Notes under the pieces: model-generated
Database searches by the model: none
The model's input: the letters and a program-made list of their open reading frames with translations, nothing else
What the model was told of the DNA's origin: nothing
Shown: positions 3,533 through 58,796 of the stretch, one piece after another
Numbering within the stretch: position 1 is the stretch's first letter
How the letters are laid out: the number at the start of each line of letters is the position of its first letter
Assembly: GCF_037975245.1 (NCBI RefSeq)
Contig: NC_092580.1
Location: 26,873,501 to 26,937,500 of the forward strand
Direction: 5' to 3'
DNA length: 64,000 nucleotides
Source of the DNA: Apostichopus japonicus
Taxonomy: Eukaryota > Echinodermata > Holothuroidea > Aspidochirotida > Stichopodidae
Translations under genes and position numbers: made by a program

Positions 3533-6500
3533 CTGCGAAAACAGAAATTGATATTGCAAATGAGCAAACTCTCGAAATATTGAAGATTGGGATGGCATCC
3601 CTCAGTAGAGCTCTCTACAAAATATTGTGTTCCCCTTCTTCTCAGATCTCTCAATCCTATCTCTCAATCCTTCTCTGATTACTCTGGTCAAACTCTTATA
3701 GGCAACTACTCCTCTGAAATTGTACAGTGTGACGTAAAGGATAGTAGATACCCATCACCTATATCGAGATCTCCTCTATGTATACGTCCATGAGATGTCA
3801 ACAACAAAAAACTGACAGTTTATTATACTGTAAACAACCATATTACCATCATAATTCCTGTCAGCATCCTGTTTACAGTACAACATTATCAACCATCCAT
3901 CATTAAAACTGATATGAAAGTGAAATTGACAGTTTAGTGTCACAATATTTAATGACTTAGCTGCATAGCTTCCTCTTTTCTTTTCTTTTCTTTTCTTTTC
4001 TTTTTTCTTTTCTTTTCTTTTTTTAAGGTATTACAGGACAAAAATGAAAAGGAGGTTCGGGAGTATCATTTTACCTGAAAATGGAAACCAACTCAAAATT
4101 CAAACTTTCCTGCTCAACACTCACAATGTATGTTCTAGTGTTGATAGTTGATTCTTACTTATTTGTAGTCGATTAATCGCGTTGCTCATCTCGCGATTAC
4201 TTGCGATTACTCGGTTACAGTTATGACGTCATCACTGTCATTTTTAAATTGCAGAAATACAGTCAAAACAAATACTTCTCCATGGTGCACTGTCTATATT
4301 TGTTCTTTCGTGTCTTAATGTGTGGTGTCTAAATCATGTTAAAACATCTACCAAACAAAAACTGTGAACAACTTTCGATCTTCTAAGTTTCTTAAAATCC
4401 TTCATAGTAAATCAAAAACTTTCAATTGAATTTAAAAAGCTACTACAACTACTAGCACTAATAAAAGCAAACATGCAAACAAAGAATAGATGTAACACCT
4501 TGTAGCCGTGTGATGATTAGTATTTCAAGAGTTTCTGTAGAAGGACATTCAACAGGCACATATTTTGCACACTGAAATTAAACTACACCGCAATCGACAC
4601 ACTCGATCAGACATTCGATAAATGTGAACCAGGTCAGTAATGAAGTAATTGTAAACTTGTTTGAAGAAATGACAAACACTTTGGCAATCGTAAAAGATTA
4701 ATAACTTCTGAAGTTGCGATTTTATGTGCAATAATCAAACATTGCTAGGACTGAATGTTGCAATGCACAACAAGAGCATTACTGTCAAGTAAATGCAACC
4801 GGAGCAGGTGCTTGACGATTTTAACGCAGCATAGAGCTAGTGAAGCATTGTTAGAACCTGTCCTGATCCGATATTTGCTGACAAACTACTTTAATGTTGT
4901 TTTTGATATGTTACTGGCTGTTTTTCAAAAGCAGATTATGTGTAGTAACTAGCTTGTAGTCGAATTTAATCGAACTTCCAAAGTGTAATCGCGACAACTG
5001 ACGATTAATCGATTACTACTATCAGTACTAGAATGTTCATGGATTCTCACCTCCACATACACTTGCACAGTTTATTACAATAGTACCTGATCAGAACCAT
5101 TTTCACACTCGTTCTGAAAGTCTTGACAGGGAATGTAAGTCAGTAACATGTTACGGGTAACCCTTCTGCTTTTCAAACCCCAATTTTCTGACACAATCCC
5201 CAACAGACACCATTACCCTCACAAAGCCCATTGGTATAAACCAACCCAGCTTCAAAAAGCTGGATCAAAACAAAAAGGGCAATTTAATGCATGAATTGGA
5301 TGAAATCATTTAAGTCGTTCTTCCACAATGAAAACCAAACAAAATGATCTGATGGACTCACCCCGATAGATAACTTCTCCTTGATGTCTTTGTGACTGAC
5401 TAGTTGAACATTGCCGTCCTCATAGTAATGGACTTGCACCTTCAGGATTCCTTTCACTTCAGCTGAGGATGCAGACTTGTCAAAGGTCACCGACCACTGC
5501 GATCTCCATCGCCCATTCCTGACAACAAAAGCAACGATTTGCCTCAGAAATATATATACACATTACCAAAGGTTTCAAGCTTAGAAAGGAGATTAGAGAA
5601 GTGATCAGAGTAAAGTGATCAGAGAAGGGATTAGGAAAACCATTTAGCAACTTTAAGCGGTTACCATTAGCTGGTAGAAGAATATATCTTACTTTTAAAT
5701 TGCAACGTTATAGGAATACGAAATTCTCAAAGTAAATTATCACCAAATTTCAAAACGCCACCTCTTCACCATACAAAATGCTACGAGGATGTGGGTTTGA
5801 CCTGAAAATGCAGGAAGTTTTCATCATATCTGTTGAAAATTCAAATTAAAACACTAGAATATCCTTTTAAAGAAACAACAAATAATCTTTAGAAGTTTCT
5901 GATATACATTCCACCAGCTTGACTTACCAATAATTTTTTGGCTGGAATTGATGATCTTCAATACATGCTATCAAAGTAATTGAGTTGCCAGAAGATTTTG
6001 CAAAGGCCTGCAAAGTAACAGAAAGAAAATATAGTACATAGATTCAAAGGTGAAACGATGAGCTACACATACCATCGTCCAATCAACAGTCATGCCTCAA
6101 TGGTTCCGTCGATTGCATTTGAACAAATTTGCCCACTTTCAGAAGAACCAAAGGCCCTGTGGGAACCTTCAGTTGGTATCATCTGAGCACTACACCCCCT
6201 ATCATCCACTTTCAATCACAACTCCACCCACAAATATTAATGGATACATCTCGTCCCCTTCATAGAAAGCAGTCAATTTCTCGTTTGGTAAAACTTGTCG
6301 TTGCCTATCTTAGCTTCCTGCATTATTTGTTGCGGTGTATTTTGTCTATTTTTTCACAGTCTGCTCAAGTTATTTCTGATTAAGTTTGTTTTAATTACTC
6401 CAACATTGCCATATTTATTATGATTAATAAATGTTTATAATAATTATTGAATTAATGGATAAATCTCTTCCCCTTCATTAAAGGCAATTCATTTCTCTAT

Positions 6501-9500
6501 TGGCTGACTGTTTGTTGTCTGTCTTGGTTTCCTGCATTATTTGTTGCGGTGTATTTTGTCTATTTTTTTCCCAGTCTGCTCAAATTATTTCTGATTAAGT
6601 CTGTTTTAATTACTCCAACATTGCCATATTTATTATGATTAATAAATGTTTATAATTATTATTGAATTAATGGATAAATCTCTTCCCCTTCATTACAGGC
6701 AATTCATTTCTCTATTGGCTGACTGTTTGTTGTCTGTCTTGGTTTCCTGCTTTATTTGTTGCGGTGTATTTTGGTTATTTTCCTGCAAGTCTGCTCAATT
6801 TATTACTGATTAAGCTTTCTGTTGAACTTACTCCAACATTGCCATGTTTGTTATGATTCATGAATGTTTATTAATGAATTAATTGATACATCTCTTCCCC
6901 TTCATAGAAAGCAGTTTATATCACTATGGCTGACTGGTTGTTGTCCATTTTTGGCTTCCTTCTTTATTTGTTGCGATGTATGTTGTCTTTATGTTTCCCC
7001 CCTCTGCTCAATTTATTTCTGATTAAGTTTGTTTTAATTACTCCAACATTGCCATATTTATTATGATTAATAAATTTTTATAATTATTATTGAATTAATG
7101 GATAAATCTCTTCCCCTTCATTACAGGCAATTCATTTCTCTATTGGCTGACTGTTTGTTGTCTGTCTTGGTTTCCTGCTTTATTTGTTGCGGTGTATTTT
7201 GGTTATTTTCCCGCAAGTCTGCTCAATTTATTACTGATTAAGCTTTCTGTTGAACTTACTCCAACATTGCCATGTTTGTTATGATTCATGAATGTTTATT
7301 AATGAATTAATTGATACATCTCTTCCCCTTCATAGAAAGCAGTTTATATCACTATTGGCTGACTGGTTGTTGTCCATTTTTGGCTTCTTTCTTTCTTTGT
7401 TGCGGTGTATGTTGTCTTTTTATTTCCCTTTTGCTCAATTTATTTCTGATTAAGTTTTTTGTTTTACTTACTCCAACATTGCCATGTTTGTAATGGTCAC
7501 TCCTGTAGCTTTTCAACGCTTTCTCCAATTCAGACCTCCAGGGCTCTGCTGTCTTATCTACACTGCCCGACTGACTGTCTGTAGCTACTTTCTTCAGATG
7601 GTCAAACTTAAAGGTCGTCTTTGTGGAAGGATCTAGGAATTTTCCATTTCCGAGGTCATTGAACTCTGTCACAAGAACCTGTGAAGAAGATATCAAACAA
7701 GCATTGGAGATGAACAGGAATCTTGTTGTTCATAGCTGAAGCACTTGGTTTACTAACTTACAGACCTATAGCAAGAGACTTACGCAAAAACTCACACAAA
7801 ATACTGAAAATGACATGGTTCAGAAACTCACAAGGATTTTATCTCAAATTTGTCAAAGTTTGCAAATTAAGTGACCCTCAAATCAGTTTTAGTGTTCGTA
7901 ACAGATACTGTAGCAATAAAGCAGATATCGACGCTAAACAATGACGCATCACCTTTGAATGAAAGTATAGTCAGATATGATCCAGCGTCATCAAAACGAC
8001 ATTTCAAAGGACTTGTCATCTGACCACACATGCCCGACCGTAATTAAAAACATTTTGTGTAACGAGTGGATGTCAAGACCAATATCATTTTTAGAAAAGG
8101 GTGCATATATATGTTATATGTAAGTAGTACTCTGTAACTATCACAATAACCTGAGGATGGCACGGGCCAATAAGTACCCACATGGTATTTTGTGACCAAT
8201 ATGATAATTAAAAAGTCATAGTATAATGGGCAAAAAGTTATTCACCGAAGAAATTATTCAGTACACAACCTGACACAATACCATTAAACAACAGCAATTC
8301 ACATCCTTGAAATTCAAAAAAAAAAAAAAAATAGAATCTTTGCATATAAAATTAATTGCCAAAGGAAGAGAGAAAAATCCCTCACCTTTTCATCTCCTCC
8401 ATTCACTTCTACCGGTGTAAACTGGTCCTTGTTGTATGTAACGAAAGCTCTGTGAGAATGGCAAGAGAAAACATGTATGACAAATGATATTTACATATCA
8501 AAGTTCAATACAGTTCCCGAACGGTCAAAACTAACTGAGATTAGAATGCACTTTACAATTGGGGATGTTCAAGAGCTCCCACTCACTGTAAAAGCGATCA
8601 GTAAAAGATATATTTAGCCGTTTCAAATACAAAATGACATTCTGAAGCTGTTTGGAAGTTTGTATGAGTACCTTTCGTGAGAGGGGTTTACGCATGGGAA
8701 AGTGGGGAGGGCCTTGGAGGGGTTTCAGTTAGGAGAATGTGCCTGACCATTTTTATATATACAGCAATCCAAGTAATGAAATAACGGCAATTAAGTTAGA
8801 CCCGTCTCAGCAATCTACAAAACTTTATGTGTGGTAGTTACTTTCTATTTCAAAGGAAGCAAGTTAACGACAAGTGGATTCGTGCAAGCACACTTAACAA
8901 TGGAATAATTAAACTCACACAAAGAAGGTTCTTGGTGCCCTTTTGCTTTCGTATGTCATAGGACTGTTTATGTATGCTAGATACTTAACATCCTCCACTG
9001 AATATACAGGATAAGATCACCTTTCAATTAACATTGAAAATCTATACCCTTTTAATCTTATTGATGAGATGGGCAGAAACCTGCAGAGAAAGTACAACAC
9101 TGTTGCCAAATATTCGGCAGATTTGGGACCAGCACTTATGCCATTTAAACATTTTAGGGTTCAAACTTGAAGGTTTTATGTTAAGCTGCTTTCATTCAAC
9201 TGTTTCCAGAAAGGAAGAAATGTTTAGGCTCTTCATGAAAGGAAAATGTTTTTCTACCAATCATGTAACTCAATATGTATTCGTGTCTCTGTCATTGCAA
9301 TCAATGTTCTGTTGCACTGACAGACTGAATTAAAACGTCAGTTTTGATCTACATGCAATGATTAAAGCTGTCGAAAGCACCCGCCATTAGAGGCTTCTAC
9401 TCGCCAAAATATAAGTTATGTTCTATCGTCAGGTTGTCATTTCTGTACTCATAGTAGTGCAAGGCTGATGTATGTTCAAAAGTGATTAGTGGCTGACAGT

Positions 9501-21997: not shown

Positions 21998-24900
21998 TAC
22001 TGTCTTCCTGTGCTAATTCTCTCCCTTTGTGGTTTTGTGCAGTGGTGACGGTGACAAGCACAGTGTACAGTGCACTATAGTGTGTCAGACAATGCACTAG
22101 CCCTATGACTCATCAGTTCACAACAATTCAGTCTGTAATTTATAATTAAAACAGTTTAGTTTTAGTCAGGTCATCTTTACAATGACAATCAATTTTGAGA
22201 AAAGAAAGAACAGTAGCTAATTATTTCTTCCTTTACGGATATAACTAGATAATGAACAGAGAAAACTACAATTGGGGGCAGAAGAGGCGTTTACTGTGTA
22301 TGGTACAGCATCAGTAATACACGACTTCTTCCTTTGTAAAGTTTGATTCTATTGTTGTGTATTAAAATGCTGAGTAATGCTAACAGGTTTATTGAAAGCA
22401 CTCTATAATCTGCAATTCAATTGGGAACTCTTCCCATTGTTTGATACCAAAATATGCACCGAGACTCCATACTGTACATGTCGCACTTCACTGTTTGATT
22501 TTCAGTTGATAAATATTGTTGAATTGTGTATAGAATTTGACTAACATTACATTACAGGCAGGGATGAAATTAAGGTTTCCCAGGACCAGAGGCCACTTTC
22601 TGTGAAATGTCCCTTCCATGATGTGAACCTAGTATTTTTGTGGTAGAACCAGGTACCACTTTGGTGTAACCAATGGCTATTTGTCAATTTGTTGTAATAT
22701 TACCATTCAGCAAGAATGTTGTATGTATGGTATAGTTTTATTTCTGGTTATTTTTGGTTCGAAATATTGTATCTGAGAGCATTATAAAAATGGTGCATGG
22801 CATGTTTTCTCTGCGATCTTTGGGCGCTGTTTGGCAAGTTGTAGAGGTCATTTGGCCCTAAGCTTTCTTCACCCTTGGTTACCATATTCCTTTCTGCTAT
22901 AGACTAGTACTGTAGATTGGAGCACTTGGATGCTTATCTATGCTGCTGACTTGTCTGTGAATTTGTGAGGACAGTACTACTGATAAATAAACCAATGTGG
23001 TGACATTTTAATTTACTTCACACGCAACTCAAGTGTCCTCTGCAAATATCATAGATTCAGAAAGCTACCTCCTTTACACATTTGGGAGGACGGTTTTATT
23101 TGATTGGGATGCAACCTGAGGATGGCTTCGGGGTAAATATTGAACTCGTCGCATACTTTTTCCGCTGTAAATTCAGTAACAGGAAAATTGCAATGCAATC
23201 AGGCGGTAGTGTGCCAAATGCCTGATAGTGATGTTTCCCTAAGGAGAAAAATATGGAGGGGGAAATAAAAAAAACGGCTCCATTTCCTTCGTTAATCAGC
23301 TGGTTAAATTTGATCTCCAATTTCTGGCTGTTTGATGAGATCGTAATTAATCAAACTAAGACTCCATAACATTTTTGTCACCAAATGAACGTTAATTATT
23401 GCATGAGAAAACGCTGTTACATTCCATAGCCCCGTCGCCGAAACACAACAGTTGCCTACTGTATATACAGTATTATGTAGTATTAATAAATGCAGACAGC
23501 AGGCAAACTGATAACAGTTGCAACAGTTTTGACATTTCCTTCATTTATGTTTACTAGTCATGTCCGGGAAGTTCGGGAACTGCATGGTGTTGGGCTTGTA
23601 AGAACCGTTGAATATAGACCAAAATTGATGAAAAGGGCTGTGGTAAAATGCTATTTATTTTAGATTATTTAGTATGTTTCAACGTGTTCTCAATAAAACA
23701 TACCGTAACTACTAACTAGACTTTTTGGTTCCTTGCTTTAGCAAAAGGAACCTATGCAGTCAGGTTGGCGTGTGTGTGTATGTATGTATGTGTGTGTGTG
23801 TGTGTGTGTCTGTGACACTTGCTTGGGTACGCTCTATCTCAATAAGGGAATGTTGGATTGAGGCCAAATTTGGACTATAGATCCGCCATATGGAGAAGGT
23901 GTGCCCTATTGTTTCTGGTGCCCACAAAGGTCACCAAAGGTCAGTTATGGTCCAAAAACCGAAAATATTAAAACTGCGATAACGCCCAGTGCCAATGTGT
24001 GACAAGATTGATATTTTGGGACAAGTTGTGAACTGGTTAGGGGAGCATTTTCAAACTTAACGGTCATGTGATCCGAGGTCACCAAAGGTCAATTAATGAT
24101 AAAAAGCTAGTAATTTTGCGATAACTTGAGAACGAAATGTCCGTTAGGGTTGGGAGTTGCTTCAATGCTATCCAATTGTCGACCCGCATCTGGGTGACCC
24201 TTGACCTCAATTTGACCTCTGGTGACCTTTACATGTTTTTGGGGATTTTTACAGTTTTGATGCTATTTTCAGATGTCAAAGGTACCTTCTGATCATAAAT
24301 GTCAATAGGTTGACCCCGTGTGACCTTTATGTGCGAAGTTATATGGGGTCAAAGTTTTTCGGTCGGAGTTAGAATGGTTGTACAGACTTGTCGTTTTGTT
24401 TTTTGGAATCAGGAGATTAAACTACATCTGAAACCAAGGTCAAAAGGTCAAAGGTCACATTAGAAAAAATGTGCTTATTTTGGGAGGAAACGAGCAAAAA
24501 AGGAAATGTTTGGTTTTGATGCTAGATTTGGATATCAAAGGTACCTTCCGATCAAAAATGTCAATTGGTTGACACCCGTGTGACCTTCGTGTGCGAAGTT
24601 ATACAAGGTCAAAGTTAATTTTCAGACATTTAATGCAACAACTCCCAGTTCCAAGGTGTGACATGGTTGATATTTTTGGACAAGTTGCAAATGGTATAGG
24701 GGAATATTTTCAAACTTAACGGTCGGTCATGTGATCCGAGGTCACCAAAGGTCAATTAATGATAAAAAACTAGTATTTTTGCGATAACTTGAGAACAAAT
24801 TGTCCGCTGGGGTTGGGAGTTGCTTCAATGTAATCCAATTGTCGACCCACATCTGGGTGACCCTTGACCTCAATTTGACCTCTGGTGACCTTTTCGTGTT

Positions 24901-27900
24901 TTGTGGATTTTTACAGTTTTGATGCTATTTTCAGATGTTAAAGGTACCTTCTGATCATAAATGTCAATAGGTTGACCCCCGTGTGACCTTCGTGTGCGAA
25001 GTTATATGAGGTCAAAGTTAATTTTCAGACATTTAATGCAATAACTCCCAGTGCCAAGGTGTGACAAGGTTGATATTTTTGGAGTAGTTGCAAATGGTAT
25101 AGGGGAATATTTTCAAACTTAACGGTCATGTGATACAAGGTCACCAAAGGTCAATTAATGATAAAAAACTAGTATTTTTGCGATAACTTGAGAACAAATT
25201 GTCCGTTAGGGTTGGGAGTTGCTTCAATGTAATCCAATTGTCGACCCGCATCTGGGTGACCCTTGACCTCAATTTGACCTCTGGTGACCTTTTCGTGTTT
25301 TGTGGATTTTTACAGTTTCGATGCTATTTTCAGATGTTAAAGGTACCTTCTGATCATAAAAGTCAATGGGTTGACCCCCATGTGACCTTCGTGTGCGAAG
25401 TTATATGAGGTCAAAGTTAATTTTCAGACATTTAATGCAATAACTCCCAGTGCCAAGGTGTGACAAGGTGTATTTTTTTGGACAAGTTGCAAATGGTATA
25501 GGGGAATATTTTCAAACTTAACGGTCATGTGGTCCAACGTCACCAAAGGTCAGCTAATGTTAAAAAAGTAGTATTTTGGGGGGAGAAAATGGGCAAAGAA
25601 AAAATGTTTGAATTTTTACAGTCATGCTCTATTTAGGTCTCACCGATCAAAAATGTCAATTGGTTGACCTTCGGGTGACCTTTGTGTGTGAAGGCATGTA
25701 TACAAGTTCAAAGTTAATTTTTTTTAATTTAATACAATTAAATCTCAATGCCAAGGTGTGACATGGTTGATATTTTGGGACAAGTTGTGAACGGGGTGGT
25801 GGAACATTTTGAAACTTAAAGGTAATGTCATCTGAGGTCACCAATGTTATCATATCTGTTGACACGCTTGTAGGTCTCTTATATTTCTTACATTTTCGAT
25901 GCCATATTTAGATCTCAAAAGTGCCTTTTGATCCAAAATCCGATCACATTTTGTGATCACAAAAGTGTTGGCTATAGTGTTGGTTACTTTATGGGAACAT
26001 GTAGGACCACAATACTTGGACTATTCGAGCCCAATCTTGCTTGATAATATTATGTGTATTGTCATATACCCCAAGCAAGGAACCACAGTGCCCTTGGGCT
26101 CTTGTTATGTGTTTAGGCTTCAACATCAGTATAATTACATATTATCTGTGTTGTAAAATTAGTGATTAATTCATTGTCACATTGGGTTCCAGCAATGCTA
26201 CTCTTAATGTGACCAGTTTGTGAAAGTACTAGGTACAGGTGGGAATTGAAACCCCTTAATGTACTGAAGCAGAGTCTGAGTGAAGGCATTGTGTTACTTC
26301 TTAAGAAGCATGTTACAGGGTTAATATACCCAACTTGGGCAAACTTGAGTCCCCACAAAGGTGTTGGCTTTAACAGTTCTCTGAAGGTTAGGCCAAATTT
26401 CAGTACAGACTGCGTTGCCAGGTATCGTTCCTATGTTTTGTTTGGTTCCATACAGACTGGCATATTCAAGGACAGCATCAATTGCTTCTACTCTACATGT
26501 GCACTTTTCACATTTACCTAATAGCCAGACAAACGTAAAGCAACAGCTCCACAGCCGCTACAGATGACCAACGATCAACTACAATACACAGTTTCTTAGT
26601 ATCAATTGCTGTAGTCATCGTTACTTGCACTGTTCAAAATTTTTAAAAAAGAACATTTTTTTTCAGTGAAACAACACCAAATTGTTACACCAAATTGTTA
26701 CTTGCACTGTTCAAAATAAAAAAAAGAAAGATTTTTTCAGTGAAACAACACCAAAGTTGCTAATTCAGTAAAGTATCATCGTTCTCTTTGCTTTCCCTGT
26801 CACCTTTGTATAGTAATTTTGCACTAAATATACATTGCATGTTGTTTTTAAAGAAAACTGTTAACTAGTATACATTTCTGAAAATTTGAGGGGAGGCTGC
26901 CTATTATGTAGATATATGTCAGTATATACTGGCAAGGAATGATGACATTAGATGTTCAGCCTGTCTACATAGCAAATGTAATGTGCATTGTGCAAAAAAC
27001 ATCAAAACTACATTTACTTAAATCCTCCTTTCGGGATATAAGGGGAAATTGTGGTGCAATGGTACGGGTGTCCAATCCCACAACTTCCCCCCCCCTCCCA
27101 CCCCCCTTGTTATCAGAGAGACTGGTCAGATGGTTAGAAACACACTCTGCTCTGTTGAATGGGTGTCTACGCATTGAGTGTCAAGTCTGGGAGCAGGATT
27201 GGGTGTAAACAATTGCATGTACCTGACTTGTTATTCTCTAAATCCTCATCAAGAAAAGATGGTCTGAGCTGCATGTTTGGCAATGGATTGGGTTTGAAAT
27301 GAGGTATTGTATGGGTGACCTTAGAACCTAATTTACATGTAGTCATGTTACATAACCATTAACTCGATTAGGTCCATAATCATACTGAAAATTAAAACTT
27401 AAGTTATTAAAGAATCTATTTGTGTCACTCTCAATGAGGAAAAACAACAAATAACAATGACTAGTCTATATAACAACAACTTGATGCCACTAGTGTTTGT
27501 GTGTTGGTGTTTGTGTTATGGAATTAACCGAGTCATAGTTACATATATACATGTACCATATCTCTGTTACACGATTACAGTATGTTTCTTGGCTTAATAA
27601 CATCTAGATCAATAGTACTAGAATTCTTATTAATTAACCTTTGTGTTGTAAAATAGATTTTCCCGTAGAATTTGTGACCTTTTCCTGCAAGTATACTCTA
27701 CTGTTTGCCACAATGGTGATGTTACCGTATTGTTCATTTCATTTCATTTGGCATCATAAGATTAGTATCATTTTATGCATAATTAACAAGCAGTGCAGTA
27801 AGTTTATTGATGCAGAACTACAGTAAGGATCTTTTTTTTATTGTGTGTAGTGTCATCGAGGTAATGATGGAGTACTCTGCCTATCGATGCAGAGATGTAA

Positions 27901-30900
27901 GATCAATTATGGCAGGGAATGTTGGATGTCATCTTACAATACTGTCAGTATTATGTGAAGCTTGTAGACATATTTAACATTTCAGGTGACCAGTTTACAT
28001 CACTCTAGACTAGCTAGATATTATAAGAGTTTCTCCTAGCCTGGATTTACAGTTCATAGTACTGTACATGTTAAGATGCTAAGTATCTGCATTTATAGAT
28101 GTATGGAGAAAGCAGTATGAATTGATAAGCTCATATATCTTGTCTGATCATAAATCGTCGACAGTTACATCCCATTGACGATTTGTTTCACCAATTTGGA
28201 ACACCATTCCACCAGATTCATTGGATAAGGAAAGAGTTGTTCACAGTTGCATAATCCACTTTACTTTTACACAACAGGGCTTGAAACCTTAAAGTCTTGT
28301 TGCCAGATTGTAGATGGGCAGATGTTGGTTGTTCCCTTTCTTGTTAGTCTCAGTAAACTGCAGGTTGTACCTGTAGCTAGCTGGAGGGTGTATAGTGTTG
28401 AAAGAGTTTCTACTTTCAAATCAATATTGGTATAAAGTTTAACCATGTAAAGAAACTCAGTCAATGACCCAATCCGGTGCTTAGATAAACCGTACGTGAT
28501 AATGATATTCAGAAATATTCAGAAATGTTCAGCTGGCAGGTTAGAGAAATAATTGTACTAGGTAAGCGTACTGTCGTACAACCATGTGTAAAGATAAATA
28601 TTCTCTTGCAAAAAAACAAAACATTTGAAGCAATTTAGTTACAGTAGGTTGTATCCTTTGTTCTCATTGTAATGACTACATTCTTTCTTTGTAATGTCAC
28701 TGAAACTTGCATTTGTCTTTTTCACCAATTAAGATTTATCTTATCTTATTTTATTCTGTTGTTTACTTTGCATGATGCAGTGAATTCACCATCAGCTACC
28801 TCTCACGAGATGACGTAGGAGAAGACGTTTTCCTGGCTCTTCTTTCGGACTGGGATCTAGATGCAGCCATCTTTTGTGCTTCCGATCCCTGTCTGCGGCT
28901 TCGAATCGACGCCAAACCCTTCGAGGGACCAGGTAAATTAATTTCAGAGAAAAGTGACGGTTTATGTTGCCGATATACTACACCATGCAATGCACGTGAA
29001 ACTAACAGTTAGTTTGCAGCTGAAAATCATCTAAACAAACTGCTCATAATTATTATTAATACTGTCTCTGAGTGATGTGGAAATGGAAATTAGTATGTGC
29101 TACTGGGCTGCTTTGTGTCAAGCAAAAAGAGTATGGCAATATAGTTGCATTGTATTGAGTCAGTTACATGAATATGTGTAGATGATGGCATAATTTAGTG
29201 AAAGAGCAAACTTATAAACTGTATGTATTAGACGTTGATGACTTGAACGAACTTTGCTTGAAAGATGCTGCTTACGCATTAAGAAAGAAAACGTGATCTT
29301 TCTTTGTATTCCCCTTTCCTACAAAAGTACTGTAAAACAAATGAAGGAGCCTACCTATTTGCTTTCATCTGTCTTTAACAGGCCTCCTCGAGGGATGGGA
29401 TGTGATCGGAGGCCAAGACGTGCCTCAGAACTCCACTGATCGTAGATACGTTCCATTCGTAGGTTCCCTGGTCACCCAGGTGGGCAGAACGATCAGTCGA
29501 GTGCAGAAGATATTCCAGAACGTGGAGGAGGAGAGCGCCGCGGAGGATCAAAAGTACGAACTACCCAAGCCACCGTTAGACGATCAAGAGTTTCTGACCT
29601 ACCTGAATTACTTGGGCTGTCTAGAGAAACCCCACGAGCTTAGGTTACGGATTTATCAGGGTGGGGTCGGGCCGTCACTGCGTAAGGTGGTGTGGCGACA
29701 TTTACTTAACGTTTATCCGGAGGGTCTCACCGGTAACGAGAGATTGGATTACGTCAAGATTAAGACGGAAGAGTATACGCTGCTCAAGAAGAAGCTCTTA
29801 TCCGATCTCCGCGACGAAAATGTACATATACGGAACATGGTGATGAAGGACGTAAACAGAACAGATCGACAAGAGCAGTTCTTTGCCGGGGAAGAAAATC
29901 CCAATAGTCTCAAATTATTTAACATTCTGACAACATTCTCATTGGCTCACCCCGACGTCTCGTACTGTCAGGGCATGAGCGATCTAGCAGCTCCGATACT
30001 CTACGTCCTAAAGGACGAGGCTCAGGCGTACATGTGCTTCTGTTGCCTGATGAAGAGGCTAAAGGGGAGCTTCCTGCCCGACGGGAAAGCCATGTCTGTC
30101 AAGTTCCTCCACCTGACCGAGCTCATCCGTTGTGTCGATGCGGAATTCTACGAGTACCTCAAAGCCGAAAATGCCGACGATCTGTATTTCTGTTACCGTT
30201 GGCTCCTGTTGGAGTTGAAGCGAGAGTTTTCCTTTCAGGATGCATTGAGGATGATGGAGATTATGTGGAGTTCACTGCCCCCAGAGCCCCCACCTCGAGA
30301 AGATGGGGTATCTCTAGAGGGACCTCCGTGCCAAAATTCGCCCTCTGCCTACACGGTGGACCGAAGGCGGTTTAAGTTCTCGTTACAAAAGGCATCGTCT
30401 CGGGATGAAGCCCTGTCGAAAGATAGCGGTGATAAAAAGAAATCTGGCATCCAGATGTCTCCTCAGAAGATATCTGTTAAAGTTGAATGCAGCTGTACGG
30501 GCGACCACTGTGAGAACTGCAGGGAGGACATCATCGACACTTCAACGGTCAACTCTAGGTCAGCAAGCAATTCACCAGCAAAGCGTTTGGCGGCGGACGT
30601 CCAGCCTGTGAAAATGCCACCTCAGTCACTCTCTCTTCACGCCAACAACAGCAATGTCAATTCTTCGCAAACCTTGTCATCGCCTGCCGCAGATCGACCT
30701 ACGTCGCCATCGTTGTCCCCGCTCAGGCAGAGCCCGTCTCCGCTCCCGACGAAAAAGAGTCCCTTCCGCGGTCTGCCTCACCCCAAAGACTTTGGCGGGG
30801 GGAATCCCTTCATGATGTTCCTCTGCCTCTCACTATTGTTAGAACAGAGAGACAGGATCATAGACAACAAGATGGACTTTAACGAGATGGCCATGTTATT

Positions 30901-31096
30901 CGACAGGATGGTCCGCAAACACAACCTAAACAGAGTCTTGCACCGGGCCAGGACCCTCTACTCACAGTACCTACAGTCAGAGGCTGCCTACACTGGATTC
31001 GTTATGGTCAAAGGTATCAACACAGTCATCCAACAGAGCTATAGTTCGGGATCTCCGCAGCACACTCCCAGCAAGCTAATAGAGACACTTACTTAG
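14728..31096 (+). CDS. TBC1D25: TBC1 domain family member 25 (OATL1-like Rab GAP), complete, 4 coding exons
   Basis: TBC-domain GTPase-activating protein; the vertebrate orthologue acts on Rab proteins, binds Atg8/LC3 proteins and influences autophagosome maturation. Coding exons 14728-14793, 16826-16935, 28781-28932 and 29382-31096 sum to 2043 nt (680 aa plus stop; vertebrate about 688 aa). All junctions are GT-AG and in frame. The N-terminal part (about residues 23-109) aligns with the ubiquitin/PB1-like region of the family (KCEGFMQPEYKNFSIDPEIT, then FLALLSDWDLDAA). W115-D-V-I118 sits where the vertebrate protein has WDII, an LC3-interacting-type motif. The TBC domain starts near residue 200. 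The arginine finger lies in VMKDVNR (Arg269) and the glutamine finger in SYCQG (Gln306). A long Ser/Pro-rich insert (about 415-575) precedes the conserved C-terminal GNPFMMFLCLSLLLEQRDRI block. An in-frame TGA at 14707 supports the start. Intron 2 is 11.8 kb and repeat-laden. Confidence 0.95.
15055..15741. mobile_element. Non-autonomous DNA transposon with repeated AAAACGTCCC subterminal motifs
   Basis: The left ~125 bp contain six copies of AAAACGTCCC-like motifs and the right ~120 bp contain about seven copies of the reverse complement GGGACGTTTT. Ends carry CCAGTC and GACTGG in inverted orientation. GTCTATAC flanks the unit at 15047-15054 and 15742-15749, a perfect 8-bp target duplication. 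The middle is AT-rich with no transposase frame. Lies in TBC1D25 intron 1. The 8-bp duplication fits hAT- or P-type elements; the superfamily is not certain. Confidence 0.75.
16265..16344. repeat. Near-perfect 30-bp inverted repeat (hairpin) with 20-bp loop
   Basis: The left arm 16265-16294 and right arm 16315-16344 are reverse complements at 29 of 30 positions (AATGTGCTCTTTCCGCCATA is the outer part of the left arm). The loop is 16295-16314. The surroundings (15940-16385) hold further GCCATA/GGCGGAA motifs, suggesting a fold-back MITE remnant. Lies in TBC1D25 intron 1, so it would be transcribed. Confidence 0.8.
16826..16935 (+). CDS. TBC1D25: TBC1D25 coding exon 2
   Basis: Encodes KCEGFMQPEYKNFSIDPEIT, then SFEMLQLLLMQAFQLK plus two bases. 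Acceptor CTTTAATAG, donor AG|GTGACT. Matches the vertebrate KKCESFLPPEF...FAVDPQITSLDVLQ segment. Confidence 0.92.
18490..19536. repeat. Copy A of a GGTTCCTTGCT...AGCAAGGAACC bounded element
   Basis: Begins GGTTCCTTGCTGTAAGCAACG followed by (GT)n and ends AAGCAAGGAACC...GGGCTCTT, the same two ends as copy B at 23727-26103 in the same intron. The interior holds diverged internal repeats around 18600-19070 (WGPxG/FWDT-like frames on the minus strand are only repeat artefacts) and a LINE 3' fragment at its right side. Confidence 0.6.
19190..19470 (+). pseudogene. LINE reverse-transcriptase 3' end fragment with tail
   Basis: The plus-strand reading around 19265-19370 gives PNMWNQLYQTILDF, then a stop, then ELPRDSFLYLF. 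This resembles the C-terminal 'WNSLP..IR...SL..FKS.LKTHLF' end of CR1/L2/jockey-type LINE polymerases. It is followed by a typical tail, GGCGCTATATAAAT and (TTA)n, at about 19432-19468. It is truncated at the 5' end and carries stop codons, so it is dead. Confidence 0.65.
20951..21046 (+). mobile_element. 5'-truncated SINE copy
   Basis: Shares its 3' domain with the fuller SINE at 43501-43747: TTCAGTCAGCTTGCG, CGCGAGTTCCTGCTTGC, and a (CATA)n tail. No tRNA-like head is seen here. Confidence 0.75.
21963..21996. repeat. (TA)n microsatellite
   Basis: An uninterrupted run of about 17 TA dinucleotides in TBC1D25 intron 2. Confidence 0.95.
23727..26103. repeat. Copy B of the GGTTCCTTGCT...AGCAAGGAACC element, with ~400-bp internal tandem units
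   Basis: The left end GGTTCCTTGCTTTAGC is followed by a (GT)n run, and the right end is AAGCAAGGAACC...GGGCTCTT at 26073-26103. From about 24060 to 25720 the interior is tandem: the landmark GCGATAACTTGAGAAC recurs at about 24118, 24780 and 25180 and AGGTCACCAAAGGTCA at 24076, 24739 and 25138, so the last units are ~400 bp and the first is ~663 bp. The array is very rich in AGGTCA/TGACCT. No coding potential was recognised. Confidence 0.75.
28781..28932 (+). CDS. TBC1D25: TBC1D25 coding exon 3
   Basis: Encodes EFTISYLSRDDVGEDVFLAL, then LSDWDLDAAIFCASDPCLRL and RIDAKPFEGP. Acceptor GATGCAG, donor G|GTAAAT. LLSDWDL is identical to the vertebrate protein. Confidence 0.93.
29382..31096 (+). CDS. 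TBC1D25: TBC1D25 coding exon 4 (terminal, 1.7 kb)
   Basis: One uninterrupted exon carries the WDVI motif, the whole TBC domain (GGVGPSLRKVVWR, KDVNRTDR, SYCQGMSDLAAP, DLYFCYRWLLLELKREF), the low-complexity Ser/Pro insert and the C-terminal conserved block. Acceptor TTTAACAG; stop TAG at 31094-31096. Confidence 0.96.
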
Positions 31097-31810
31097 AAGG
31101 GTTTGTCTTGGTCATGTTTTTACAGAAACTTGACAGACAGAAGAGATGTCGGTCTATCAAAACTTGAGAATATGATGCCTTTGATGGTCGTACATTGAAA
31201 CACACATATTCTCCCCAGCAAAAGAAAAAGAAGATAATGCTGGTGTGGCAGGAGTTTAAAGGGCTTTTCGGGTGGGGGGGGGGAGAAAGGGGATGAAAAT
31301 GACATAAATTTATTTCCTCTGGCCACTCTGATGAAACTACCAAGAAAGGTACAATACTTTGTGTTTTCAGAACCAAAGAAAGTATTAGTCAGCTGTACAG
31401 CTGAAGATTGCATTACAAATGTACTTATAATGCTACCTCCACCCCTCCCGCTCCCTGTGTGTCCTTGACCATCCCACTTATGGTTCCTCAACGCTCACAG
31501 TACCACTATTGCTATTGTTTAATCATTTATATTTACTGAGATTGTCTTCAGCACTCCCTTCCAGTTGTTTACAAAGTTGACCTCTATGTAGCGCTGAGTT
31601 ATTCAGTCACTTGAGCTTGGAACTTGCTTCCTCTGATGACTTTAAGGCTTTGAAGTTTGTGCTACTCATAGAATTGTCTTTGCTTTTTTGTCATTTATAG
31701 TGAAACATTAATATTAAAACTAAGCTAAAGGTCGTTATTATTATGAAAGGCTTGAAAACATTCATAATTTGATTCCTTTATTCAAATATATTTAAATAAA
31801 AATTCTTTTT
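31097..31810 (+). other. TBC1D25 3' UTR and flank
   Basis: Non-coding sequence after the TBC1D25 stop. ATTAAA at 31713-31718 and AATAAA at 31795-31800 are candidate poly(A) signals. The second lies in the diverged first unit of the 155-bp satellite that follows. Confidence 0.5.
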
Positions 31811-32824
31811 AGGTATTCATTGATTGCCATAAGATTTGCAAACTACTGGCATTGTCAGAACATGCCAGGCAAAATGTCTTCATAACCATCATTTATGATA
31901 TCAGTCAGGTACACTTTGATTTAAAACTGATCTTATTACAAATATATTTAAAAAAAATTCTTGTTAGGTATTCATTGATTGCCATAAGATTTGCAAACTA
32001 CTGGCATTGTCAGAACATGCCAGGCAAAATGTCTTCATAACCATAATTTATTATCTCAGTCAGGTGCACTTTGATTTAAAACTGATCTTATTACAAATAT
32101 ATTTAAAAAAAATTCTTGTTAGGTATTCATTGATTGCCATAAGATTTGCAAACTACTGGCATTGTCAGAACATGCCAGGCAAAATGTCTTCATAACCATC
32201 ATTTATGATCTCAGTCAGGTACACTTTGATTTAAAACTTATCTTATTACAAATATATTTAAAAAAAATTCTTGTTAGGTATTCATTGATTGCCATAAGAT
32301 TTACAAACTACTGGCATTGTCAGAACATACCAGGCAAAATGTCTTCATAACCATAATTTATGATCTCAGTCAGGTACACTTTGATTTAAAACTTAAATCT
32401 TATTACAAATATATTTAACAAAAAATTCTTGTTAGGTATTCATTGATTGCCATAAGATTTGCAAACAACTGGCATTGTCAGAACATGCCAGGCAAAATGT
32501 CTTCATAACCATCATTTATGATCTCAGTCAGGTACACTTTGATTTAAAACTGATCTTATTACAAATATATTTAACAAAAAATTCTTGTTAGGTATTCATT
32601 GATTGCCATAAGATTTGCAAACTACTGGCATTGTCAGAACATGCCAGGCAAAATATCTTCATAACCATCATTTATGATCTCAGTCAGGTACACTTTGATT
32701 TAAAACTGATCTTATTACAAATATATTTAACAAAAAATTCTTGTTAGGTATTCATTGATTGCCATAAGATTTGCAAACTACTGGCATTGTCAGAACATGC
32801 CAGGCAAAATGTCTTCATAACCAT
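31811..32824. repeat. 155-158-bp satellite, six full units plus one partial
   Basis: Units begin AGGTATTCATTGATTGCCAT at 31811, 31966, 32121, 32276, 32434, 32590 and 32746. The periods are exactly 155 bp for the first units, then 156-158 through small A-run changes. Copies are nearly identical, indicating recent amplification or homogenisation. The last unit is cut after about 79 bp. Confidence 0.96.
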
Positions 32825-33743
32825 TTGTTTTGTGAGAGTAGGATCAAAGAAATTTAGGAGAAAAAGAAAGAATTTATTGCAATGGGCGAGCCTATGTTAG
32901 CGTAAAAAATTATGCCTCAGTTTTTCCGATAGAGAGTGATATTTCCAAAGTTACTTCCAAATTTTTTCTTTGTAAGTAGTATTATACGACTTCATCTTGA
33001 TCTTTAATTGGGCAAAAGAAGTCATTTTTATTGCAAAATTCAGCAGTATTAAAGGGGTGGTATGGTGTGGGTATGACTGCATGTAAGGTACAGGTGCATG
33101 ATATAAATATATATATAAATATAATCGATAACGCTCTGCAAGCCAACAGTTTGCGTTTGTGCTGAACGAGCGACGCAATATTCAAAGATGATTCGATACC
33201 CCTCACTCTCACTAAGAAATTGTAGTAAATACAACAGTTGAATTCACAACTAACTTAAATATAACATTTGGTATTCATGTTTTAGGTGGGGTGGGGGGGG
33301 GGGGAGGGTGTTCTTTGAAAATTCTTAGCATAAAATATCATCACACCAGGTGCCATTTTGGTGGGCTAAAGTGGTAGAAATGGAATGGAATTGTTAATAA
33401 CTCGCTTACAAGAGACACTTGAGCAACAGTTAGGAATGTGGCTTAGTTTGATCAGTTGTTGTCTTGTGTGAATCAGTACTGCAGGATATGTTTGGTAAAG
33501 TTGCAATAACATGGGATCCAAATACAAAGCATCGCTTTAAAATTGATCATCAAACTGGAAAAAAAAATTCTCAAGCCATTCTTTTCACTCTTCAACAACT
33601 ATTTGACCTTTCACCTGTATATACATAAATTATCATCTTCATATTTTGCCAGAGTTTTTATTCCAACCATATTTTTAAGTTTTTTTTGTGTATGTGTGTG
33701 TGTGGTCATTCCTATTTTGTGTTTATTGATTCAATTTATTGTT

Positions 33744-35190
33744 AAGTTTAATAGGTAGGTGTTTGCCAACATTAATATACACCACATTTTACGACCTGGA
33801 AGCTCATACAGCATACACAAATTCATATCCATTAATATATACTTATTTATGAGAAATTAAAAGTAATTAAATTCTTGGCAGAAATGTGTTCTATCATCAA
33901 AGTTCTTTAAACTTATTCTATTAATTTATTGAATCTGTAGTCAAAATGTCAGGTCTGTTAAATGGGTAACTTTATTGTAAAGTTTAATAGGTAGGTGTTT
34001 TCCAACATTAATATACACCACATTTTACTACCTGGAAGCTCATTCAGCATACACAAATTCATATCTTTAGCAATATATACTTATTTATGAGAAAGTAAAA
34101 GTTATTAATTTCTTAGCAGAAATGTGTTCTTTCATCAAAGCTCTATTAAGTTATTCTATTAATTTATTGAATCTTTAGTCAAAATTTCAGGTCTGTCAAA
34201 TGGGTAAAGTAACCTCTTCATGTTTTCATGTAAGTGCATAAGGAATGTTTGTCACCACTCGTGGGCATTGTTGTCTCTATGTAGGTAAACGTCATGTTAG
34301 AGGGACATGTTGCATCTCATCAGAGAGGGGATTTATGGATTTATCGTTGAAGGTGTGTATCACTAAAAGCAGAAGACATGTGTTCAAATTCATATCTCAT
34401 ACTTGTTTACATATTTAGTTTGACAGCATTACACAAATTCATATCTTTAGCATTATACACTTATTTATGAGTCATTAAAAGTAATTAATTACTTAGCAGA
34501 AATGTGTTCTATCATCAAAGTTCTATTAAGTTATTCTATTAATTAATTGAATCTTTAGTAAAAAAATTTCAGGTCTGTCAAATGGTTAAAATAACCTCTT
34601 CATATTTGTTTTCATGTAAGTGCATAAGGAATGTTTGTGACCACTCGTGGGCATTGCTATCTCTAGGTAAACGTCATGTTAAAGGGACATGTTGCGTCTC
34701 ATCAGAGAGGGGATTTAAGGATTTATCGTTGAAGAAATGTATTACTAAAAGCAGAAGGCATGTGTTCAATTTCTTATCTCATACTTGTTTACATATTTAG
34801 TTTGACAGCATTACACAAATTCATATCTTTAGCAATATATACTTATTTATGATAATTTAAAAGTAATTAATTTCTTAGCAGAAATGTGTTCTATCATCAA
34901 AGTTCTATTAAGTTATTCTATTAATTTATTGAATCTGTAGTCAAAATTTCAGGTCTGTCAAATGGGTAAAGTAACCTCATATTTGTTTTCATGTAAGTGT
35001 TTAAGGAATGTTTGTGACCACTCTTGGGCATTGTCATCTCTATGTAGGTAAACGTCATGTTAGAGGGACATGTTGTGTCTCATCAGAGAGGGGTTTTAAG
35101 GATTTATTGTTGAAGAAATGTATCACTAAAAGCAGAAGGCATGTGTTCAATTTCATATCTCATACTTGTTTACATATCTAGTGTGACACA
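33744..35190. repeat. Tandem array with 235-bp and 381-bp units
   Basis: ACAAATTCATATC recurs at 33817, 34052, 34433 and 34814, giving one 235-bp step and then 381-bp steps. Shared blocks include TTAGCAGAAATGTGTTCT, TTTCAGGTCTGTCAAATGG, GGTAAACGTCATGTTA and GACATGTTG. The longer units contain an extra ~145 bp that the first unit lacks. No gene is inside. Confidence 0.9.
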
Positions 35191-35544: not shown

Positions 35545-36537
35545 TCAATGAATTAGAAGGAATTCATTCAATTTTTTGTGACATCTGAAAGTTTGGATGA
35601 GTTTGTCGTTGGTCCCCCCCCGTATGATTTCACTCTTGTACATGTCAGCAGTCGGGGAATCAAGAATTAGTTTAAAGATATGCCAGTCCACTATACAGAT
35701 GCATGAAAATTCTGACAAAATTGCATCAAGAAAGAACATGCGACCTAACCTCCCCTAACGGTCTTAAATGATGGATCAGGTGCCTGGTCCTTACAAACAA
35801 ATATTTAATAACACATGCTTATTGAGAGTATCAGCTGTTTGTTTACAATTTGGCAAAAAAAACTGCCTAAATCCTTTGACTCACTGAAATTCCTCAAATG
35901 TTACGTCATTGGCTACTTCATTAGTTTGTCTGCAATCTATCAAAATATTCATATCTCTGTTTTCACAAATCTCATGCTTATTATAAGATTCCAGTAATTT
36001 ACATGTATTAAACTTCGTCACCTCATTTAGGTCAGGTTTAGTGCAATTTGGCTACTTCATAAATGTTACGTCATTGGCTACTTCATTAGTTTGTCTGCAA
36101 TCTATCAAAATATTCATATCTCTGTTTTCACAAATCTCATGCTTATTATAAGATTCCAGTAATTTACATGTATTAAACTTCGTCACCTCATTTAGGTCAG
36201 GTTTAGTGCAATTTGGCTACTTCATAAATGTTACGTCATTGGCTACTTCATTAGTTTGTCTGCAGTCTATCAAAATATTCATATCTCTGTTTTCACATGC
36301 TTATTATAAGATTCAAGTAATTTACATGTATTAAACTTCGTCACCTCATTTAGGTCAGGTTTAGTGCCATTTGGCTACTTCGTAAATGTTACGTCATTGG
36401 CTACTTCATAAATTTGTCTTCAATCTAATCAAAATATTCATATCTCTGTTTTCTCTAATCTCATGCTTATAATAAGATTCCAGTAATTAACATGTATTAA
36501 ACTTTGTCACCTCATTTAGGTCAGGTTTAGTGCCATT
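35545..36537. repeat. Diverged duplicate locus (copy 1) ending in a 165-bp tandem array of 4 units
   Basis: The left part (35545-35895) is homologous to 39010-39297 and the right part to 39952-40165 (shared GGATCAGGTGCCTGGTCCTT, ACATGCTTATTGAGAGT). The terminal segment AAATGTTACGTCATTGGCTA is tandemly amplified, with starts at 35896, 36061, 36226 and 36384 and periods of 165, 165 and 158 bp. Copies are nearly identical. Confidence 0.9.
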
Positions 36538-39009
36538 TCTTTTGGTATTTGTGAGTTGTACATTGATGGCATTCAAGTTGAAACAGGGACTAAAACTATG
36601 AAGGGCAGATTGGCAAAATGAGGCACTCACACAAATTTCCTGCAGCCTGACAAGTATTCAAGACCCAATTACCTTTATGGCAATTAACAACCTGCAATTT
36701 TGTATTCTTCTAGAAGTTTTCATAAATGCTTAAAGAATCAGCTTGTGATGGGATATTTCACCATAGAATGCAATATTTCAATCTCACAGGATTAGTTACA
36801 TCCGTAAGGATTTTGGCATGCCAATTTTGTCAAAAAAGAACATCAGTTCTTGCCCACACCCTGCTATAAAGTGATAAATTCTTTCTATAGGTGAATGTAT
36901 GTGACTGATCCTTCTAATCTTCATCAAATTAATTAATGGTTATGTTAGAAACGTTTTAAACTCTAACGCTGCTTTGTTATTTTCCCATAAACTTTATAGT
37001 ACAAGTAAGGCTAAACACTCTTTTCGTGCAATTTTTCTTTTAAAATATTCACAAATATTCATAATAGAGCCTTGCCTTTATTTCAGGCTGATTTCTGTCA
37101 CATTGAACACTTGAATTATTTGACCCTCATCTGTACATTCCTTCTCTTCTAAACAACTCTTTTTTTTTTTTGACATTACGTCACGTTAATTAAAAAATAC
37201 CATAATTGCAACTTCCTTCAAAGGTGTGGAAATATTTTCTGAGCATAATGATTGATCCATATTTCAACAAAGATTATGGCAGTGGGAAACAAGCAGCTGC
37301 TAGTTTATTGTCAGTTTTGTAGATTCTATCACTGTGTGTTGAATGAATAACACAGAGGTGTCTACTTTGGCAAGTTCAATTGCTGCTATCTAGTATTAAG
37401 TCTCAGGAAAGGTTATTATTTATTAGGCATGTTTTATGACAAATTTGAAAAAATGGAGAAATTTTGGTAATTCTTGTTCTTTGGTGTGCAGTGTATTCTA
37501 AGGTGATAATTTTAGATGATAGAAGTAAAGGTCATTTCTTATCCTCACTTTTGAAAAAATTTCATCTATCCTAAAAAACATGTTGTATGTATAACCCATT
37601 TATAATTTAAAGATCTTTAGGACTGTTTATGGTTTTCCTGCGGAAACGTGAAGTCCGTTCATAGAAATGTGAAGTCCATGGAAAGAGAAAAATTTTTCAT
37701 TATCCCCATTGGTACCTGTATTCCTCTTGGACATTTGTAGATGGAATTATGACTATAGATAAGAGGCCTTCTAGTAAGTTTAATACGATACTAACAGTAA
37801 GCAATGCAACTCATTCCATAAAATGTCTTCTTATTAAAAGACAGGTCAGTTTATGTCAGATCAGAAAACATGATTTTGACAGTGTGGGGGGGGGAGGTGG
37901 AGGAGGCAAGTGGATGGCAAAAGCTAACAGGTTTTTTTTGGGGGGGAGGGGTTTGGAAGTACAAAAATGCACCAGTGATAAAGTGCACATCACATGCAAA
38001 TTTAGGGGCTGCAGATGGGCTTCAGTTATGTTTTCAGTCGCTATATACCGGGCCGACCACAGGAAGGACAAGTTGATTGGAGGGGGAGATCCTTCCCCCT
38101 CCCCACTTGCACGGTGACTCCACTGTTAACGATATGTTAATTGTAAGTTGAAGTGATTTAATGCATCCCGCATGAAATTGTATTACATCGTTTCCTTTTC
38201 CATAAGAGGTAGATGGGGAGGAGCATGGGGTGACTTGAAGGATGAGAAATTTTTACATAAACGTAAGGTACACATTCATTCCTGATGAATTTGACATTTT
38301 GACAAGTGAATTTATCTACTGTACTTGAACTTCCTGAATACAGATGTGTTAATCATCTGTGGCAATTCTATATTTGCTACATGTATTTAAAATAATAGGT
38401 TGAATGTCTTCAATTTTTGTTCATGCCTTTGTTTAGTATGTGACAAAAAGAAAGATGGGTTCCTCTTTTAGTTGAAGTAGAAACCCTGAGATGATCATTT
38501 TTACTTCTGCTATAAGAGTGTTGAAGCCAATTAAAAGTAGCATTGTTCCATTTCAGTTGTGCAATAAAATTCCCTCTCCACAGTGTGAATGCTGTTGTTT
38601 ACAAATTCATTGGTTTTGTGTTCTTTTATTTGATTTGTATTTAAAGAAATTTCTCATATTACTCGTACCTACATTTCTTGTTTGGATATCCCCAAAAGCT
38701 GAATCAAATTAATGTCATGGAATATGTTAACATTGAACATTAAGTGTGGGTGTTACAGCTCATTTGATAGTACTTTCCCTATAATGTAGCGAAAAATGAC
38801 GAACAATACAAAATTTGTACAAAAGTTATGTCACTATGTGAGAAAAGTTGCTGTGTTGATGGAAGCTTTTTTTTATTGACTAGATGAAGCTGTCATGTGA
38901 CAACTGTGGAAATCTTCTTGTGAGAACATCAACTGATATGGTGACTGGGCCTAGCAGTCATTTCACCACACCTCAGATTCTCAACTTCACATATAAAAGT
39001 ACTGATCAC
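36538..39009. other. Intergenic sequence without recognisable gene
   Basis: AT-rich sequence between the convergent TBC1D25 and PIERCE1 genes. It contains short G-rich patches (about 37883-37960 and 38075-38115, GGGGGG/CCTCCCC), which may be MITE debris. No splice-consistent coding segment was found. Confidence 0.5.
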
Positions 39010-57873: not shown

Positions 57874-58796
57874 TCAACCTTCGGGACTGTCGACGGCTAT
57901 CCCTTTTCTCATCTTGTGTTGCCATCTCCTTCTACTTGTGACTTTCACGCTGCTTTCTTTGGATTCGAAATCAAAGCTGAACGTCTTCTTTAACACAGGA
58001 GTACTGAGTATATCTAAGACCAGCGAATCATCACCAGAACTCGAGTTGTCAAGGTCATTGCATCTGGCCACCGCCTCTAAATCTTTGTTACGAATGACTG
58101 TCGGTTCACACCTCTCACGCTCCTCCTCCTCCTCGCCGAAGTCCTGCTTATCCAGTTCTTTCCTCTCTCCGCTGCATAACTCCTCCCACTGTTTGGCCAG
58201 ACGGGAGTACTTACCGCAGGACATTCGCTTGGAGAGCCTGACGGAGCCTCTTTTAGTAGTCTCCGAATCAGTCGTTACTTGCACCTTTGTTCGTAAGACC
58301 ACCCCATCTTTGGTCGCCTCGCTGCTTCCGTTCGTATTTGACGTAGAAATCTTAGACAACTTTTCGGTTACGATTACAGTTTCTTCTGACCTACATTTTG
58401 CACTGGTGACTTTTCTTTCGCTGGCTTCCTCCTGTCTCTTGAGTACACCCCTGAGAAGCGGTTGTTTTTTACTTCCCTTTCCGGACAGCTTTGAAGCCGC
58501 ACTTCTGCTGGACCCGTCGACAGATGTACCAGAGTCAAAATTGGAGAGTGGGTCCGAGCAGATGGAAGAGGCACTTTGAATGGCCGTTCCTCCAGAATTA
58601 CAGCTACGGGCAGAGTTCTTCAAGATGCTTTTAGCCGGCTGTTTCTGTTTGGACTTTTCTTGAACTTTGAGATACATTTCTGACGGTGATGGCAGGGAGC
58701 CGGATCCACAGACCCAGTCATGCCCCATGATATCCTCGATGGTCGCCCTCTTCTTTGAGTTGACTGTTAGCATATGCTTGATGAGTGGTTCTGCAT
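57874..58796 (-). CDS. NUAK: NUAK terminal exon (end of kinase domain and regulatory tail)
   Basis: Encodes the last 306 full residues. It starts (D)[19 protein letters not shown], closes the kinase domain at GHDWVCG, then runs through a Ser/Lys/Glu-rich tail with two short PP1-docking-like motifs and ends [11 protein letters not shown] before TGA. Acceptor CTGTTTAG. Large antisense open frames here are shadows. Confidence 0.94.

Follow-up and report, generated by a model that had tools for sequence, protein, structure and literature searches.

The window analysed here, a 64-kb stretch of DNA, carries a CAPZA gene on its minus strand. Seven CAPZA exon pieces, spread from 11813 to 3338, were detected at E<=0.002 in a tblastn search with human CAPZA1 (the remaining entries in the list, with E>=2.4, are chance matches). 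The peptide encoded by exons 5 and 6 matched the Pfam family PF01267 (F-actin_cap_A) with an E-value of 3.8e-25 and a score of 89.3 bits (cut-off, 24.2), and aligned, with no gap across the exon 5|6 junction, to CapZ alpha-1 chains that we take to be vertebrate (five sequences displayed of 14 rows). With both the domain and the continuity of the exons in place, the gene is identified as that of the F-actin capping protein alpha. Splicing from 7472 (exon 5) to 6007 (exon 6) preserves the reading frame, in agreement with the first-pass annotation of this DNA, which had placed CAPZA on the minus strand with the true donor at the end of exon 5. The acceptor of exon 6, TTTTCTTTCTGTTACTTTGCAG, has the highest pyrimidine share among the 105 AGs scored within or at the end of intron 5. 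Exon 5 is numbered on the assumption that a single exon further upstream encodes residues 1-14; tblastn with human CAPZA1 did not detect such an exon. The lengths of the six bounded introns of the gene range from about 410 to about 1949 nt (some of their ends are based on rough scores), and the two that flank exon 5 are about 704 and 1464 nt long. The features of this region are as follows:

5928..6007, minus strand: CAPZA exon 6 (tblastn, acceptor score, spliced frame)
7472..7681, minus strand: CAPZA exon 5, 210 nt, phase 0, peptide end ...DHYKHGNVG (Pfam, CapZ alignment, tblastn, spliced frame)
7472..7495, minus strand: last 24 nt of exon 5, common to every intronic unit (23/24 or 21/24 match)
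6236..7495, minus strand: tandem array of six units, u1 to u6 (TRF, self-BLAST, unit alignment)
7466..7471, minus strand: true donor GTAAGT, in u1 (splices in frame to exon 6; ranks first among 61 GT sites in the modelled U1 duplex)
7254..7259, minus strand: decoy donor GTAAGT, in u2 (same 9-mer as at the true donor)
7036..7041, minus strand: weaker decoy donor GTAATT, in u3 (unit alignment, U1 model)
6826..6831, minus strand: decoy donor GTAAGT, in u4 (same 9-mer as at the true donor)
6608..6613, minus strand: weaker decoy donor GTAATT, in u5 (unit alignment, U1 model)
6393..6398, minus strand: weaker decoy donor GTAATT, in u6 (unit alignment, U1 model)
7352..7354, minus strand: first in-frame stop on skipping of the true donor, 117 nt into the intron

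The array was delimited by TRF at 6236-7489, with a period of either 215 (5.8 copies) or 428, a dimer (2.9 copies), and self-BLAST carried the homology on to 7495, 24 nt into the exon; the earlier statement that the array ends inside exon 5 is thus borne out. The first unit begins at this point within the exon and contains the true donor, GGA|GTAAGT, at 7471. The lengths of u1 to u6 are 212, 218, 210, 218, 215 and 187 nt, the last unit being cut short, and the corresponding donors lie at 7471, 7259, 7041, 6831, 6613 and 6398, with spacings of 212, 218, 210, 218 and 215. The spacing varies between 210 and 218 nt instead of being fixed at about 213, as had been noted. An AT-rich stretch is found at the unit joins (for example, at 7284-7305), in two subtypes: the one that follows u1 and u3 has 22 nt, and the one that follows u2, u4 and u5 has 28 nt. 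These 22-28 nt match neither the exon side nor the far end of the array. Misassembly is an unlikely source of the array because the units differ by 1-20%, although an error in the number of copies remains conceivable.

A BLAST comparison of 6001-7800 with the 64-kb window yielded no copy of the unit outside 6236-7495 at E<=0.01. A search for an exact 20-mer gave no hit in the viral contig collection, and none of the pattern matches to the peptide of exons 5-7 (25 in genome contigs and one in viral contigs) was confirmed by tblastn as a relative. The 64-kb region is rich in repeats of the unit size of the CAPZA array: other long-unit tandem arrays lie at 24513-25577, 31778-32824, 33735-35188 and 35896-36538, with periods of about 399, 155, 238/382 and 165, respectively. 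Elsewhere in the window, a 68-bp unit is repeated at 51477-51671 (2.9 copies, 96% match) with short open frames on both strands, and there are two long open frames, one of 583 codons at 29345-31096 on the plus strand, presumably resembling a TBC-domain protein, and one of 310 codons at 57874-58806 on the minus strand, which we take to resemble the tail of an AMPK-related kinase.

The last 24 nt of exon 5 recur in each of the intronic units, with 23/24 matches in u2 (7259) and u4 (6831) and 21/24 in u3 (7041), u5 (6613) and u6 (6398), so that the decoy donors do share the exonic context attributed to them. ACTTAC followed by TCCAACATTGCCATGTTTGT occurs at 7466-7491, 7254-7279 and 6826-6851, exactly where the first-pass annotation had located it, and a version with AATTAC is present at the anchors 7041, 6613 and 6398. 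The homology has a sharp limit inside the exon: in the 36 nt immediately upstream of the shared stretch, agreement drops to 7, 11, 7, 10 and 11 of 36, which is about the chance level. Among all 24-mers of exon 5, the eight that best match intron 5 are the final eight of the exon (median, 14). Chance similarity between the exon end and the array was considered and rejected, given this sharp limit, the observed 23/24 as opposed to no more than 18 matches (14.3 on average) when intron 5 was shuffled 200 times at the mononucleotide level, and a best match of 17/24 elsewhere in the window (both strands, 6236-7700 left out). The homology among the units runs without a break past the splice site and into exon sequence, as expected of a tandem duplication across the exon/intron boundary.

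The units are unequally related to each other. The identity reaches 99.1% between u2 and u4, 94.7% between u1 and u3, and 92-93% between u5 and u2 or u4, compared to 80-87% for the other 11 pairs; this pattern suggests that two units, about 428 bp together, were recently duplicated as one block. The unit u1 is a mosaic, with the first 30 columns closest to u2 and u4 (one difference, versus four for u3, u5 and u6) and the part beyond about column 80 nearly identical to u3 (four differences). A block of 18 nt, from -14 to +4 relative to the splice site (ATGGCAATGTTGGAGTAA), is invariant in all six units, and none of the other 149 windows of 18 columns (columns 29-194) is. An invariant run of this length was obtained in 59 of 10000 column shuffles, a comparison that assumes independent columns and therefore overstates the case. 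The whole 24-nt exon block is not the most conserved stretch of 24 columns in the unit, as 13 of 147 such windows within intronic sequence equal or exceed its conservation; only the 18-nt core stands out. The invariance of this core may come from exchange with the constrained exon, from short age, or from selection.

Altogether, the repeat copies contain three donor-consensus sequences of the form GGA|GTAAGT and three of the form GGA|GTAATT. All nine bases from -3 to +6 (GGAGTAAGT) are the same in the donors of u2 and u4 as in the true donor, and by construction the three sites therefore have equal 9-mer scores. As a correction to the earlier description, two of the five decoys keep the 9-mer of the true donor; the remaining three have GTAATT, and there is no uniform ladder. 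In a model of the U1 duplex over 11 nt, the true site scored -8.0 kcal/mol, u2 and u4 -6.4, and u3, u5 and u6 -3.7; intron 5 also has four GT sites unrelated to the repeat (6195, 6072, 6227 and 6193) that reached -7.4 to -6.5, better than u2 and u4. When a mammalian weight table was applied, the identical donors, three in number, tied for third place among 62 sites, behind 6072 and 6136. The exonic bases of the true donor, GGA, are weak. By these models, the decoys appear credible but not outstanding as donors.

Use of a decoy would produce an exon of 422, 640, 850, 1068 or 1283 nt (u2 to u6, respectively). The first-pass annotation stated that decoy use would add intronic sequence to the mRNA, but it overlooked that a single in-frame stop is shared by all five products; it lies 117 nt beyond the normal junction, and 92-953 nt separate it from the new one. 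An in-frame extension of the protein through decoy use is therefore rejected, the stop lying at 7354-7352. Such placement of a stop is a setting where nonsense-mediated decay is expected, and the decoy products should be targets of this pathway. Internal acceptors in the array are unlikely, judging from the AGs available there: the best of these, in three units, have 55% pyrimidine over 20 nt, compared to 85% at exon 6, by what is a crude measure. The units as cassette exons are unsupported, with no AG in the array above 55% upstream pyrimidine. Almost exclusive use of the donor at 7471 is predicted, with exon skipping a likelier failure than decoy use; this prediction draws on human and minigene data on donor choice under exon definition (PMC9225289).

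The best explanation of the locus overall, and in our view a probable one, is duplication of the exon boundary followed by growth through dimers, with the true donor in use and the decoys rarely used and their products removed. A segment starting 24 nt inside exon 5 and spanning the donor plus about 165 nt of intron 5 would have been duplicated in tandem, with joins of 22-28 AT-rich nt that have no match, and this would have been followed by amplification, including a late step in which two units (about 428 bp) were duplicated together. Intron 5 would thereby have come to carry five extra copies of the exon end and its donor. The true donor would stay in use as the one closest across the exon to the exon-5 acceptor, under exon definition, and would also benefit from being transcribed first and from the more stable modelled U1 duplex. 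The decoys, we infer, would be used rarely, and the resulting mRNA with its early stop would be eliminated by nonsense-mediated decay. Some points do not sit easily with this scenario: the joins are unmatched, so the first duplication either was not clean or has since drifted; the invariance of the 18-nt core is not predicted by plain drift of useless decoys; and PMC9225289 reports both a downstream preference before strength matching and exon skipping with weak identical donors in larger exons, the CAPZA donor having weak exonic bases itself.

The first-pass annotation had left open whether the array grew from the exon or the exon end was captured by the array. The former is better supported. 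The shared segment of the exon codes for H-Y-K-H-G, in register with the DHY-x-x-G of the five CapZ rows displayed (of 14), and the Tyr codon of the exon, TAC, is replaced by AAC or AAT in all five intronic copies (CATAA, compared to CATTA(C) in the exon). Thus, the exon has the conserved state and the copies have the derived one, which favours the exon-to-array direction and makes the exon a likelier source than the array, as far as this alignment indicates. The opposite route has a small probability; here, a satellite or transposon-derived array already present in the intron would have invaded the exon through gene conversion or unequal exchange, with repeat sequence taking the place of the donor and of the final ~20 coding bases. 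Such a capture would account for the sharp limit at 24 nt and for the residues NVG at the end of exon 5 (7472-7480), which differ from the FCT of the displayed CapZ rows at exactly the shared positions. The NVG residues would indeed fit replacement of the exon end by the repeat, but exon 6 diverges at its first codon, too; moreover, retention of the reading length and of H-Y-x-x-G without an indel would require luck, and the unit has no BLAST match elsewhere in the 64-kb window. The codon in question (6005-6007) encodes A, where the CapZ rows have V, so that the departure from these proteins is seen on both sides of the intron.

Other readings of the same array assign a function to the copies. 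The decoys could be regulated poison donors, the selected, tissue-specific use of which yields a stop-containing mRNA and lowers CAPZA output; the sole run of 18 invariant unit columns spanning the donor, the true 9-mer in two decoys, and the early stop common to all five decoy products are compatible with such a role. We nevertheless regard it as quite unlikely: the G at +5 is absent from three of the five decoys, the exons would reach 422-1283 nt, other GT sites in the intron score equally or better, and the invariance could stem from young age or exchange with the exon. Its extension to a selected ladder of poison donors with variable copy number, where exchange with the exon keeps the block identical and the number of units sets the loss of CAPZA pre-mRNA, is more speculative still and very improbable. 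U1 is known to protect transcripts from premature cleavage and polyadenylation, and six donor-like sites spaced 210-218 nt apart, with the donor block as the longest invariant run, might serve as landing sites for U1 in this capacity, without splicing; a 1.46-kb intron is hardly in need of such protection, and we give this idea equally little credence.

The locus provides a natural gene in which three donors identical over nine bases are accompanied by three weaker copies at similar spacing. Models that consider only the 9-mer cannot separate the three identical donors, and if one of them is preferred, the cause has to be sought in position, in the length of the exon, in bases beyond +6 or in exonic enhancers. 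The locus also illustrates how coding sequence may become coupled to repeat turnover when a repeat arises at the edge of an exon.

Several known systems are comparable. Turri et al. are said to have described in 1995 a minisatellite that provides multiple donor splice sites in an interferon-induced transcript, reportedly human 6-16/IFI6, with a ~12-bp unit at the exon end. As in CAPZA, a tandem repeat multiplies a 5' splice site of a transcript; however, the CAPZA unit is 210-218 nt long, compared to ~12, its copies occupy over 1 kb of the intron, and its extra donors are putative. Among the titles listed in literature searches of open-licence papers, none described the CAPZA array. In Drosophila, splice sites have been reported to arise by tandem duplication (PMC2891723), and the potato RdRp gene contains a tandem genomic duplication across an intron/exon boundary (PMC4974935). 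As in CAPZA, the duplicated segment crosses the boundary and brings splicing signals with it, but in potato this is the boundary of the first intron and second exon, duplicated once, with a new intron in use, whereas CAPZA has six copies on the donor side.

The closest parallel in terms of donor choice comes from minigenes with two identical consensus donors, of which, under exon definition and with 365-nt introns, only the upstream one was used (PMC9225289). The same paper reports that human events of strict exon definition with near-equal donor strength prefer the upstream donor, that about 60% of human events overall favour the downstream donor when strength is left unmatched, and that weak identical donors in larger exons lead mostly to exon skipping. 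In both the minigenes and CAPZA, several donors of one exon with equal 9-mers compete for one downstream acceptor. The minigenes are engineered pairs (CAG/guaagu and the weak GAG/guguca), whereas CAPZA is natural, with five extra copies, two of them identical, and the exonic bases GGA; its flanking introns (about 704 and 1464 nt) are longer than the 365 nt of the minigenes. As for the proposal that the array is a natural test of donor choice, minigenes with two identical donors had already been made (PMC9225289). The CAPZA locus adds a well-preserved example, with a long unit, to a kind of duplication that is already known.
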